A stretch of 64,000 bases of DNA. Origin: Lachnospiraceae bacterium NK4A179. Lineage in GTDB: Bacteria; Bacillota; Clostridia; Lachnospirales; Lachnospiraceae. Positions 15,961 to 52,321 of the stretch are shown in pieces. Numbering within the stretch: position 1 is the first letter of the stretch; each line of letters begins with the position of its first letter. The stretch lies in assembly GCA_000421045.1 (NCBI GenBank), contig ATWC01000005.1:62001-126000 (forward strand), in the 5' to 3' direction. The position numbers were made by a program, and so were the translations under genes. The notes under the pieces are model-generated. The model worked only from the letters and a program-made list of their open reading frames with translations. It was not told the DNA's origin and did not search any database.

Positions 15961-15966
15961 CTTGAT

Positions 15967-16205
15967 GTTGATTCGTCAGGTGCTGCGGAATTAATAGTAC
16001 GCAGATAATAGGGAAGCGGGTGCAAATCCCGCACGAACTCGTCACCGTGATTGCAGGAAAGACCACAGACTAAATAGCCACTGGATATAGACCGGGAAGG
16101 CTGTCTGAGGGTCATGCATCAGCCGGGAGACCTGCCTGTTCGAAGACGCGTGCCGCGAGTAATCGGCAAGGCGTGTCACAAGTGCATCCTTTCAACGTGG
16201 GTGCA
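15967..16205 (+). promoter_or_regulatory. Cobalamin riboswitch
   Basis: The conserved landmarks occur in order: AGGTGCTGCG, AATAGGGAA, GCGGGTGCAAATCCCGC, CGTCACCGTGA, GCCACTG, ACCGGGAAGG, GGGAGACCTGCC, and a terminal arm built on GACGCGTGCC and GGCAAGGCGTGTC. This is the adenosylcobalamin-type aptamer layout. It is followed by a small hairpin (TGCATCC/GGGTGCA) and a terminator, consistent with transcriptional shut-off of the downstream operon when cobalamin is plentiful. Confidence 0.93.
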
Positions 16206-48830: not shown

Positions 48831-50183
48831 ATGAAGAAGGCTGCAAAGCTTTATGTTATAACGGTGAGTCTTTTCCTGATTCTGATAGTCGCTGCCAATA
48901 TCATTTCGGTCAGAACAAAAAGAAAGAAGGCCGATAATGAAGTGACTGTAATGAACAGGATCGTTTGTGAAGTTCAGGATCATATTGATGAAAATGCAGT
49001 GGATATTCCGGATGAAGCGGATGTGAATGATCTGCTGCGCCGTTTTTTTTATGATAATACAGATGCGCTTGCAGGAGAATATGGGAGAAAGGACCTGCCG
49101 GATTCGGCTTATTATATTTCCGCCGCAGCAGGGGAATCCGAAGTGAGTCTTATCAATAAAACGGGGATGAATGAAAAGCTTTGGGCCTTGCGCTATGAAG
49201 ATGGCATAATTGGGTTTATCGTATTTGAGTCAGTGGATAATGATACGCGTGAGAGGCTTCTTCTCAATCTGTCACTTTTTGCAGCATTCTTTTTTACTCT
49301 TCTTATATGTATATATATTTCAAGAACTGTTCTGGGGCCGTTTGCGAAGCTTTCGACCTATCCTGAAAAATTGTCAAAAAATCAGATAAGCGAGAAGTTG
49401 CCTGAGACAAAAAACAGAGTGTTCGGACGTTTTATATGGGGCGTCAATATGCTCAGCGACAGGCTTAAGAATGATAAGGCAAGGATCGAGCGGATGGATA
49501 AGGAGCGCCAGACTATGCTGACTACGGTTGCTCATGGTATCAAGACTCCTGTTGCCAATATAAAGCTGTATTCAGATGCGATACAGACCGGCCTGTATCA
49601 GCCTGATGGAAAAATAAATGAAGAGGATGCAAGGGTCGCAGAGAAGATAAGTAAGAATGCAGATGATATAACGGAGCTGGTAAAGAGCCTTATAAAAACA
49701 GCTTCCGAGGAATTGATCTCTTACGAAGTTAATATTGAAAGCTTTTATTTAAGCGAACTGAAGGACTTTTTACATGAAGAATATTCCAATCGTCTGGAAG
49801 TGCTTAAGATACCGTATGAATTTGAACTGACAAGCAATCTTATAATTAAAAACGATAAGGCCGGAATATGCAGAATGCTGTCGCAACTTATGGAAAATGC
49901 GATCAAATACGGTGATGGAAGAGGGATACATGTAGTGCTGGATAAGGATGCGGAAGGATACTATTTCTCGGTAAGAAATAAGGGGAAGCTTATAGATGAG
50001 AGCGAGTTACCGTATCTTTTCAAGAGCTTTTGGCGCGGTTCCAATGCAGAAAATGTTGAAGGAAGCGGCATAGGTCTGTTCGAAGCACGTGAGATAGCCA
50101 AAAGGCTTGGTGGTGATATATATGTTAAGGCTGATAAAGAAAATGAAGAGATGGAGTTTATGATCTGTTTACCCTTTACTTAA
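48831..50183 (+). CDS. Sensor histidine kinase
   Basis: 450 residues with membrane helices at about 6-26 and 146-168 flanking an extracytoplasmic sensor region of about 115 residues. The dimerisation region has TTVAHGIKTPVANIKLYSDA, with Gly instead of the usual Glu/Asp right after the phospho-accepting His. The ATPase domain follows: LMENAIKYGDG (N box), VRNKGKLIDESELP, FKSFWRGSN and GSGIGLFEAREIAKRLGG. It pairs with the response regulator 6 bp upstream. The last 8 bp overlap the convergent pilin-like gene. Confidence 0.92.
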   Translation: MKKAAKLYVITVSLFLILIVAANIISVRTKRKKADNEVTVMNRIVCEVQDHIDENAVDIPDEADVNDLLRRFFYDNTDALAGEYGRKDLPDSAYYISAAAGESEVSLINKTGMNEKLWALRYEDGIIGFIVFESVDNDTRERLLLNLSLFAAFFFTLLICIYISRTVLGPFAKLSTYPEKLSKNQISEKLPETKNRVFGRFIWGVNMLSDRLKNDKARIERMDKERQTMLTTVAHGIKTPVANIKLYSDAIQTGLYQPDGKINEEDARVAEKISKNADDITELVKSLIKTASEELISYEVNIESFYLSELKDFLHEEYSNRLEVLKIPYEFELTSNLIIKNDKAGICRMLSQLMENAIKYGDGRGIHVVLDKDAEGYYFSVRNKGKLIDESELPYLFKSFWRGSNAENVEGSGIGLFEAREIAKRLGGDIYVKADKENEEMEFMICLPFT

Positions 50184-50868
50184 ATTCATTATAGACGTTC
50201 TTTTTAAGCCAGTCCCAGAGACTTCCTTTTACGCTTTTCCCTGTTTTGTTTGAGATAACGTAGTATTGCATTCGTTTTCCCTTCAAAGGACCGGATTTTA
50301 CTACGTTGTAACTGTCAAATATCTCGGTCTTGCCATTCTGACGCGGATTCCTTGTAGACCATTCGTTATTATAATAATACAGTGGCAGTGTATTCTTTTG
50401 TTCCATATAAACACAGTAGTAGATGGTATACTTTTCATAAGCTATGTCGGGGGTATAGGCTTCAGTTCCCTTTTTGCCGGCATTCGATCCGACTGCGACC
50501 ATAAACAGATAGGGCTCCGGGTTAACTCCGGCCAGTCGTATGATCTCTTTTGCGAATTCCGTATTTGAGACATCCTGATCCGCATTGTTTGAAGCGTTTT
50601 CACCGGAGTCTTCTTTTGCACCGGTAATAACAGGCGTTCCAGCCGGAACATCCCCGTTAATCGCATACTGCTCCACAAATGCAGCCTGTGCAGCATCCTT
50701 GCAGGCTTGAGCATTTGGCAGGTATCTTTTGATCTTGGCTTCTCTGATATAACCGATAAGTGTCGGTACCAGGATCGCAGCAAGGATCGCAAGGATCACC
50801 AGTACGATGATCAGTTCAACCAGGGTAAAGCCTCTGTTTTTTGAAAGGTGATTTTTCTTTTTGTTCAT
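50176..50868 (-). CDS. Type IV pilin-like protein
   Basis: 230 residues. The N-terminus has a class III prepilin signal: short basic leader, then RGFTLVELIIVLVILAILAA, with cleavage after Gly and Glu at mature position 5. The rest is a pilin-like C-terminal domain with no recognised family. AAAGGGC is 7 bases before the ATG. No pilus assembly gene (PilB, PilC, prepilin peptidase) is in the window, so it depends on machinery encoded elsewhere or works as a pseudopilin. Confidence 0.88.
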   Translation of the reverse strand: MNKKKNHLSKNRGFTLVELIIVLVILAILAAILVPTLIGYIREAKIKRYLPNAQACKDAAQAAFVEQYAINGDVPAGTPVITGAKEDSGENASNNADQDVSNTEFAKEIIRLAGVNPEPYLFMVAVGSNAGKKGTEAYTPDIAYEKYTIYYCVYMEQKNTLPLYYYNNEWSTRNPRQNGKTEIFDSYNVVKSGPLKGKRMQYYVISNKTGKSVKGSLWDWLKKNVYNEFK

Positions 50869-51019: not shown

Positions 51020-51028
51020 TGATATAAT
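51020..51028 (+). promoter_or_regulatory. Extended -10 promoter of the leader peptide / kinase-GNAT unit
   Basis: TGATATAAT: consensus TATAAT (51023-51028) with the extended TG motif. The -35 at 17 bp (GTGCAG) is poor, as expected for extended -10 promoters. Confidence 0.7.
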
Positions 51029-51061
51029 GAAAAGCGCAAATAAAAAACGGAGGGAACAATA

Positions 51062-51094
51062 ATGGTTATGTTCAGAAAATTAAGAAATATCTAA
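51062..51094 (+). CDS. Putative 10-residue leader peptide
   Basis: GGAGGG lies 7 bases before ATG, and the frame reads MVMFRKLRNI then TAA. The codons RKLR form a K-L-R (+X+) motif, known from macrolide-arrest leader peptides of resistance genes. The stop codon is followed at once by a 13-bp hairpin and, 76 bp further, the start of the kinase-GNAT gene. That it is translated is inferred from the ribosome binding site and promoter. Confidence 0.55.
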   Translation: MVMFRKLRNI

Positions 51095-51164
51095 AAGCAT
51101 GAGACTTATAGAATAGTTTCATGCTTTCGGTCCTATCGGAACAAAAACTATTTTTATAAGGAGA
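51094..51164 (+). promoter_or_regulatory. Candidate attenuator with mutually exclusive hairpins
   Basis: Arm 1 AAAGCATGAGACT (51094-51106) pairs over 13 bp with arm 2 AGTTTCATGCTTT (51115-51127). Part of arm 2, AATAGTTT (51112-51119), can instead pair with AAACTATT (51145-51152), which runs into TTTTT. TCCTAT (51131-51136) can also cover the AGGA of the ribosome binding site at 51159-51162 with a bulge. A ribosome paused on the leader peptide would change which pairing forms. The precise logic cannot be fixed by eye. Confidence 0.5.
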
Positions 51165-51170
51165 ATCGAA

Positions 51171-52268
51171 ATGATATTTCAAGACAATATAATAAAAGAG
51201 TATTTACGCAACGTATATTTTATTTCAGGAACAGCCTGTGGTGGAAAGACAACGGTTACCAAGGCACTTGGTGAAAAGTACGGTATTCCGATCTATGTCA
51301 TCGATGATCAGTTTACGATCCATCAGCTTATGTCGGATAAAGAATATCAGCCTACCATGAATACAACATTCAGGGATGCGGATGAGTTCTTTGGAAGAAG
51401 TGTTGATGAGTACAGGAAATGGCTTTTGGGAAATAAAAGGGAACAGCTGGATTTTGTACTGCTGGATCTGATAAGGCTCTCAAGAGACAGGGTTATTCTG
51501 TGCGATCTTCATATTGTTGTTGAAGAAGCAGACAGTATAACCGATCCATCCAGGATCGTTTTTATGATATCAAAGCCGGAAAACATTGTGGATACGTACT
51601 GTAACCGGGCGGATCATCAGCCGTTCAATGATTTTATCCACAGTGCATCCGATTTTGAAGCTGCCAAGGCAACATGTGAGCAGACTTTAACAGAGCTGAA
51701 TACCGAGATATACAACTTTATCAAGTCAAGTGGTTACTTCTGGGTAGAACGTGATAATACAAGAAGCGTTGCGGATACGGCAGCTTTGGTTGAAAAGCAT
51801 TTTGGATGGCGACTTTTAGATGATCTGGAGATCCGGAAAGTTGAAAAGGGAAGTAATCTTTCTGATGAACTCCTGGCTTTCATTGAGAACTGTTCATGGG
51901 ATGAAGTCAAAGAACACATGACAGACCTTGTGAGAAACTGGAGATTAACTGACTGGGAAACAATGTTTGTGGCCAAAGCGGATGGTAAGATTATCGGAAT
52001 GACTTCTGTCATGAAAGAAGATTATTATCCTATGCCGGAATTGATGCCATGGATATCCTGCGTGTATGTTTCAGAGGAATATCGTGGCCTCAAAGTTGGC
52101 GGAAAAATGATCGATCATGCGAATGAATATCTGAGAGGATTGGGATTTACGCAGAGTTATATCCCTTCAGACCATGTCGGGGTGTACGAGCATTATGGAT
52201 ATCATTACATAAAGGATATCGTAAACTACGGCGGTGGTACGGATCATTTATTTGTAAAGGAACTTTGA
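51171..52268 (+). CDS. P-loop kinase / GNAT acetyltransferase fusion
   Basis: 365 residues. The N-terminal half (to about 205) is a nucleotide-kinase-like domain with FISGTACGGKTTVTKALG (Walker A GxxxxGKT), VIDDQF and the LID-like region RADHQPFNDF. The C-terminal part (about 220-365) is a GNAT acetyltransferase: DWETMFVAKADGKIIGMTSV, WISCVYVSEEYRGLKVGGKM (acetyl-CoA loop) and VGVYEHYGYHYI. Combined kinase-acetyltransferase proteins and a leader-peptide region suggest drug or metabolite modification, but the substrate is unknown. AAGGAG precedes the ATG; a terminator follows. Confidence 0.8.
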   Translation: MIFQDNIIKEYLRNVYFISGTACGGKTTVTKALGEKYGIPIYVIDDQFTIHQLMSDKEYQPTMNTTFRDADEFFGRSVDEYRKWLLGNKREQLDFVLLDLIRLSRDRVILCDLHIVVEEADSITDPSRIVFMISKPENIVDTYCNRADHQPFNDFIHSASDFEAAKATCEQTLTELNTEIYNFIKSSGYFWVERDNTRSVADTAALVEKHFGWRLLDDLEIRKVEKGSNLSDELLAFIENCSWDEVKEHMTDLVRNWRLTDWETMFVAKADGKIIGMTSVMKEDYYPMPELMPWISCVYVSEEYRGLKVGGKMIDHANEYLRGLGFTQSYIPSDHVGVYEHYGYHYIKDIVNYGGGTDHLFVKEL

Positions 52269-52284
52269 TCATCTAAACAACAAA

Positions 52285-52321
52285 AATGATGCCCATGTCG
52301 GATTCGGCATGGGCATTTTTA
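52285..52321 (+). terminator. Terminator after the kinase-GNAT gene
   Basis: ATGCCCATG-(10 nt)-CATGGGCAT followed by five T. Confidence 0.9.

Follow-up and report, generated by a model that had tools for sequence, protein, structure and literature searches.

A putative macrolide-type stalling leader and three covarying RNA helices upstream of a kinase(-acetyltransferase) gene of Lachnospiraceae

Introduction

Leader peptides with a +X+ motif, where a single residue is flanked by two basic ones, stall ribosomes that have bound a drug: X then sits in the P site, and the A site holds the second of the two basic residues (PMC8298421). The leader of tlrB (yxjB, RlmA-II) from Bacillus subtilis, MIIQFIRYR, carries its +X+ near the end, and tylosin stalls the ribosome there with X in the P site (PMC6851288). 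In ErmDL, a leader of the macrolide/ketolide kind, Arg-Leu-Arg occupies residues 6–8 (PMC8298421). In Listeria, the rli80-hflXr system places an RLR leader before a gene outside the classical resistance enzymes, that of a homolog of a ribosome-splitting factor, and it operates by transcription attenuation with a terminator (PMC6310831).

The candidate leader considered here precedes a gene for a P-loop kinase that is often fused to a GNAT acetyltransferase. It is akin to that of tlrB, which is also short, with codons that join a helix masking the Shine-Dalgarno of the target (PMC6851288). It differs in its target, a kinase(-GNAT) here and a 23S rRNA methyltransferase in tlrB, and in the two more codons (N, I) that follow the motif; masking is split, with one helix (H0) on the start region and another (H2) on the Shine-Dalgarno; there is no terminator, and the bacterial family is a different one. 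With ermDL-ermD it shares the register of the motif, residues 6–8 as in the version MVMFLRLRNI, and a predicted stall at codon 7, whereas the target gene and all the flanking sequence are different and the stall is, in our case, a prediction. The likeness to rli80-hflXr is that of an RLR leader before a gene outside the classical resistance enzymes; the mode of control and the target differ. By analogy, our leader would work as those of tlrB and ermD do, and its sequence suggests a new member of this group with an RNA architecture of its own. The literature that we searched held nothing relevant on the peptide RLRNI or on this kinase gene family, and as far as that literature goes a kinase is a new target for such control.

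The leader frame and its signals

The locus belongs to a stretch of 64,000 nucleotides from Lachnospiraceae bacterium NK4A179 (contig ATWC01000005.1), hereafter the window, where the leader and the signals preceding it are arranged as follows.

51020..51028, + strand: extended −10 element TG-A-TATAAT, without a good −35 (sequence read by eye)
51049..51054, + strand: ribosome binding site of the leader, GGAGGG (sequence read; a Shine-Dalgarno precedes the leader ATG in orthologs too)
51062..51094, + strand: leader peptide MVMFRKLRNI, stop included, with K6-L7-R8 as its +X+ motif (frame and ortholog comparison)

The frame at 51062–51094 reads ATG GTT ATG TTC AGA AAA TTA AGA AAT ATC TAA. A consensus promoter scan did not list TG-A-TATAAT at 51020–51028, the reason being its weak −35. 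The initial annotation of this DNA had read here an extended −10, a strong ribosome binding site, the frame MVMFRKLRNI, a 13-bp hairpin, an alternative pairing and then the gene, and every one of these elements is found in its place. Matched against Rfam 15 at gathering score, the leader belongs to no family, a tRNA and a cobalamin riboswitch (15961–16153, RF00174, 94.4 bits) being the only matches in the window. On the minus strand, a gene whose product begins like a type IV pilin (GFTLVELIIVLVILAILAA) runs divergently from the leader at 50176–50868.

Taken in this single sequence, the leader region 5′ of the kinase gene has a fold energy z of −2.58 against shuffles, with 3 of 200 shuffles equally good. 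A single hairpin of that quality is weak on its own, and it could be asked whether these are chance features of an AT-rich 5′ region. The conservation of the leader and the covariation of H0, H1 and H2, both described below, refute this view, to which we leave practically no credit.

Conservation of the leader

Bacterial genomes were scanned with four kinase domains, giving 351 encoding stretches, from which 80 loci were kept; with the window and L004 this makes 82 sequences, in each of which the leader was read from the 170 nt upstream of the kinase gene. The leader is present in 77 of them (75 of the 80 fetched orthologous loci, the window and L004). In two of the five others, L053 and L096, the contig starts too near; in L044, L087 and L097 it is genuinely absent. 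L087 and L097 have lost it in a setting where the kinase gene directly follows the stop of a histidine-phosphatase gene, apparently in an operon, and a gene of the latter kind is found 5′ of the leader in 13 loci. Distant relatives of the kinase (about 30% identity, other families) and a close one in G098 have no such leader that could be seen by eye.

The commonest versions of the peptide are MVMFLRLRNI (22 times), MVAFLRLRNI (13 times) and MVMFRKLRNI (6 times), while the rarer ones include MVTFLRIRNI, MVIFIRLKDI and MFTAMAMRTRMI. At residue 6 a good share of the leaders have Lys and the remainder Arg, each written with several codons, and residue 7 is L, I or M, with many synonymous codons. 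In 76 of the 77 leaders a K/R-X-K/R motif ends exactly three codons 5′ of the stop, the basic residues being the fifth and the third from the end. That relatives should keep the leader and its RKLR-type +X+ motif was the key check named by the initial annotation, and it speaks for the proposal. One leader stands apart: at L111:2233–2265 the peptide is MVMFLWIGNI, with WIG at the motif and both basic residues gone, and H1, H2 and H0 are still able to form. Nature provides there a test of the need for a basic motif.

Over codons 2–10, the last nine, dN/dS is about 0.20. The short frame is under coding selection together with its K/R-X-K/R, and by frame, motif and selection MVMFRKLRNI appears to be a +X+ leader of the macrolide/ketolide type. 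Synonymous variation (pS) is 0.70–0.76 in codons 2–8 (0.76 in codons 6–8) versus 0.09 in codons 9–10. On this evidence, the leader is under peptide constraint first, and under RNA constraint in its last codons.

Could the leader sense something else than an antibiotic – the supply of arginine or of charged tRNA, polyamines, or any slowing of translation? The two Arg/Lys codons are invariant in kind, and the geometry of the RNA is such that a ribosome held anywhere near codons 5–8 would have much the same effect. Residue 6, however, is mixed Lys/Arg with its several codons, unlike the single-amino-acid runs of starvation leaders; the basic residues are set apart by one residue and no more, as in +X+; and the ABC-F gene linked to some of the loci carries a leader of its own. 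We see such a cue as unlikely, and keep to an antibiotic-stalled ribosome in what follows.

Three conserved helices

Because codons 9–10 are nearly frozen at synonymous sites, a third helix, H0, was sought beside the hairpin (H1) and the alternative pairing (H2), and it was found; it does not appear in the initial annotation. The elements are these.

51094..51127, + strand: H1 hairpin, arms 51094–51106 and 51115–51127, 13 bp (fold and covariation)
51105..51119, + strand: H2 5′ strand, made of the H1 loop and 3′ arm (duplex prediction, cognate test and covariation)
51145..51160, + strand: H2 3′ strand, extending into the Shine-Dalgarno AAGGAG (duplex prediction, cognate test and covariation)
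51158..51163, + strand: Shine-Dalgarno AAGGAG of the kinase gene (sequence read; conserved in A3 and A6)
51084..51091, + strand: H0 5′ strand GAAATATC, from the end of leader codon 8 to codon 10 (covariation and cognate test)
51173..51180, + strand: H0 3′ strand GATATTTC, comprising the G of the start codon, gene codons 2–3 and the first base of codon 4 (complementarity and covariation)

H1 sits directly at the leader stop in the minimum-energy fold. In the alignment 94.8% of its cells are paired, 8 of the 12 pairs have changed on both sides, and none of 500 shuffles is as good. In the window H2 joins 51105–51119 to 51145–51160 by 15 bp with one bulge; its core has 93.2% of cells paired and 21 cells changed on both sides, again with 0 of 500 shuffles as good. 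Both stems are retained in relatives by compensatory covariation, which the initial annotation had also set as a check. Pairing of H2 is stronger between cognate strands than after exchange (0 of 2000 permutations as good), and this is also the case of the half adjoining the Shine-Dalgarno when taken alone (0 of 2000). Of 57 sequences, 55 have two or more bases of AAGGAG paired in their optimal H2 duplex. The median energies of the two structures are nearly equal, −15.9 kcal/mol for H1 and −14.8 kcal/mol for H2.

H0 pairs leader codons 8–10 with the start region of the gene, covering only the G of the start codon. Its alignment is 97.1% paired, with 5 of 8 pairs changed on both sides; none of 500 shuffles is as good, and none reaches any of five measures. 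Over 55 distinct leader/start pairs, cognate strands average −8.9 kcal/mol versus −7.0 kcal/mol for exchanged ones, and none of 5000 permutations does as well. In 71 of 72 loci leader codon 8 and gene codon 3 correspond at their third positions, A or G in the former being matched by T or C in the latter. This covariation is mostly silent in both proteins; the sole exception, L074, has lost the hairpin as well. The kinase tree requires a minimum of five or six changes in these bases. On well supported branches four independent pairs can be compared, none disagreeing, and this is too few for the sign test (p 0.125–0.25), so that the strength of the silent covariation rests on the counts and on other changes within H0. 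Compensated cases of the latter kind are L078 and L085 (leader GAAATTTC, gene GGAATTTC) and also L090 (leader GAATGATT, gene GATCATTC).

As judged from these alignments, H0, H1 and H2 are all kept by compensatory changes. The locus contains mutually exclusive structures that mask its ribosome binding site and start: one strand is common to H1 and H2, part of the Shine-Dalgarno is taken up by H2, the start codon is touched by H0, and the three covary. At its lowest energy the free RNA folds into H1 and H0 together, and the role of H2 therefore depends on translating ribosomes.

Transcription or translation

The initial annotation had the alternative pairing end in a T run, and saw in the leader an instance of control by attenuation. 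The pairing is real, and its parts are laid out as in an attenuator. What does not hold is the T run: in the window it lies inside the 3′ strand of H2, not 3′ of a helix, and it is not conserved. Control at the level of translation is the likelier one. The view that the alternative helix and its T run form an intrinsic terminator may draw on AAACTATTTTT, present in the window, and on the terminator-like hairpins that do follow ABC-F leaders in related loci. Yet most orthologs have no such run (see for example TATTGAATCAAAAAGG and TATATAAGG), the terminator scan gave nothing between the leader and the kinase gene, the alternative helix included, and the conserved H2 partner extends to the Shine-Dalgarno in nearly all orthologs. 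We rejected the T-run terminator on these grounds, and transcription attenuation now seems very improbable. At the other end of the gene the scan did find a candidate.

52288..52317, + strand: terminator-like hairpin 3′ of the kinase gene, 13 pairs with a T-rich tail (terminator scan)

The probable reading of this arrangement is, in our opinion, an attenuator of translation of the macrolide type, worked by ribosome stalling and placed before the kinase(-GNAT) gene. In an empty leader, codons 8–10 would pair with the start region (H0) and translation of the gene would be off, if we follow the geometry. A ribosome reading to the stop would cover the 5′ strand of H0 and the 5′ arm of H1, leaving the H1 3′ arm to join the Shine-Dalgarno region (H2), and the gene would be off again. 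If a ribosome stalled when L7 had reached the P site and R8 the A site, it would cover codons 8–10 and open H0, with its leading edge at about 51095–51096, the foot of H1; H1 would then form, H2 would be barred, and the gene would be translated. Geometry and energies combined suggest that the Shine-Dalgarno and the start would both be free in the stalled state alone. Counted from the first base of the X codon, H1 begins to pair about 14–17 nt downstream in most relatives, which fits a stall at the motif, since the toeprint distance is 15–16 nt (PMC6851288). By analogy, the stalling agent would be an exit-tunnel antibiotic, for example a macrolide or a ketolide.

The protein downstream of the leader

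The target of this leader was first read as a kinase-acetyltransferase fusion.

51171..52268, + strand: P-loop kinase (residues 1 to about 213) fused to a GNAT acetyltransferase (about 216–365), 365 aa (domain and structure searches)

This description suits the window and 53 of the 80 loci; fusion is not constant among orthologs. GNAT matches adjoin the kinase in 4 further loci and there is none near in 23, a few of which are cut by a contig end or have a frame break, so that GNAT is missing, from the gene as well as from beside it, in about a quarter to a third of the orthologs. What stays constant in the target of the leader is thus, as the sequences have it, the kinase, and fusion as such is not an essential feature.

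The AlphaFold model of the kinase part (pLDDT 94) has a nucleoside-monophosphate-kinase-like fold, with adenylate and UMP/CMP kinases as nearest folds (TM-score about 0.5, identity 11–18%). Pfam has no family above its cut-off for this part of the window protein, and a sequence search of solved structures gave nothing of use. The GNAT part resembles acetyltransferases of the AAC(6′), PaiA and SpeG types. In this fold the acetyl-CoA loop usually follows the pattern R/Q-x-x-G-x-G/A; it is RGLKVGG in the window protein and RGQRISG in many orthologs. At their cut-offs, no curated family of drug kinases or drug acetyltransferases takes in the protein, which matches generic GNAT only: AAC_6p_group_E is matched at 17.6 bits for a cut-off of 140, and no kinase family is matched.

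The protein may confer resistance, most simply through phosphorylation of a drug, with acetylation in addition in fused forms, a step of the proposal of which we are less sure. Such leaders commonly run drug-inactivating enzymes (PMC6851288), and both kinase and GNAT are typical drug-modifying folds, AAC(6′) being among the GNAT matches. By analogy drug modification is plausible; filing the protein as a drug-modifying enzyme exceeds the evidence. A different outcome deserves serious attention, even if we would lean against it: the leader works as proposed, while the kinase-GNAT modifies a component of the cell (the ribosome, a tRNA, a stress metabolite) or belongs to a general response to blocked translation. 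The kinase is without a match, by sequence or fold, to any drug-modifying kinase, its nearest solved folds being the nucleotide kinases just named, the GNAT loop is unusual, and there is a precedent in HflXr: an RLR leader governs it, and the protein works on ribosomes instead of the drug (PMC6310831).

Two further ideas about the gene were rejected, a mobile origin because plasmids and phages held no close relative of the kinase gene, and anti-phage defence because PADLOC gave no match.

Where the leader occurs

An RNA model of the leader gave 20 strong matches in two genome samples, all directly 5′ of this kinase gene, as were three more in further genomes. The use of the leader before other genes was rejected, the model giving elsewhere chance matches only (a T-box-like region and another gene, E about 0.8, and two matches without the kinase, E 0.02–0.05). 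Searching 392 genomes with the peptide pattern returned the kinase loci and scattered single matches that we judged to be chance.

Neighbouring genes are diverse over all loci, with a few exceptions. In 25 of the 80 loci, largely one clade and hence not 25 independent associations, a gene resembling ABC-F ribosome protection factors is found no more than 6 kb upstream from the kinase gene. Three of these were scored with the model for ribosomal-protection ABC-F proteins and came to 280–286 bits, the cut-off being 380. A leader of 21–24 codons precedes 23 of the 25 linked genes, with an early +X+ in 13, and many of these leaders are followed by a terminator-like hairpin. Examples of ABC-F genes with such a leader (e.g. 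MFIRVRRFDNVYSYHYTSWRRVK, MIIRTKSESKSNLFLIKASWRSAK) are found in L058, L060, L064, L080, L083, L090 and others; the end of the leader overlaps a CCTCC-GGAG stretch. With its leader the ABC-F is a candidate for a second, separate leader-controlled resistance gene. Its linkage is in favour, short of proof, of the kinase gene having a part in defence against ribosome-targeting drugs. The genome from which the window comes has no close copy of it (about 31% identity at best), and the window's kinase gene stands alone.

Another small gene of P-loop kinase type is present in L064 (7420–8256) and in 20 other loci; in many of them it comes after the kinase gene, and in L095 and L037 it lies upstream. 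It matches PRK06761, a hypothetical protein, below the cut-off.

What the leader would tell of the gene

Stalling leaders report on the purpose of the genes that they control: here the RNA would say that the gene is wanted when the exit tunnel of the ribosome is blocked. A kinase family without annotation is thus singled out as likely to have a function in resistance or ribosome stress in bacteria of the animal gut, a family which counts about 80 fetched loci and probably more, if we consider the 351 stretches that encode relatives. As for the design of the RNA, a single attenuator could distinguish a stalled ribosome both from an absent one and from a terminating one.

We may tentatively go further, in a proposal that is conceivable and about which we remain rather doubtful. 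The family might be a widespread and so far undescribed one of intrinsic resistance in rumen and gut Lachnospiraceae, where a P-loop enzyme with the fold of NMP kinases, often fused to GNAT, would inactivate a natural exit-tunnel antibiotic, and where a double-lock attenuator would open for a ribosome stalled at the motif and stay shut for an empty leader or a terminating ribosome. The leader and its pairings are conserved across dozens of gut and rumen bacteria, and the kinase gene is a candidate determinant of antibiotic resistance that would be inducible and of a new kind.
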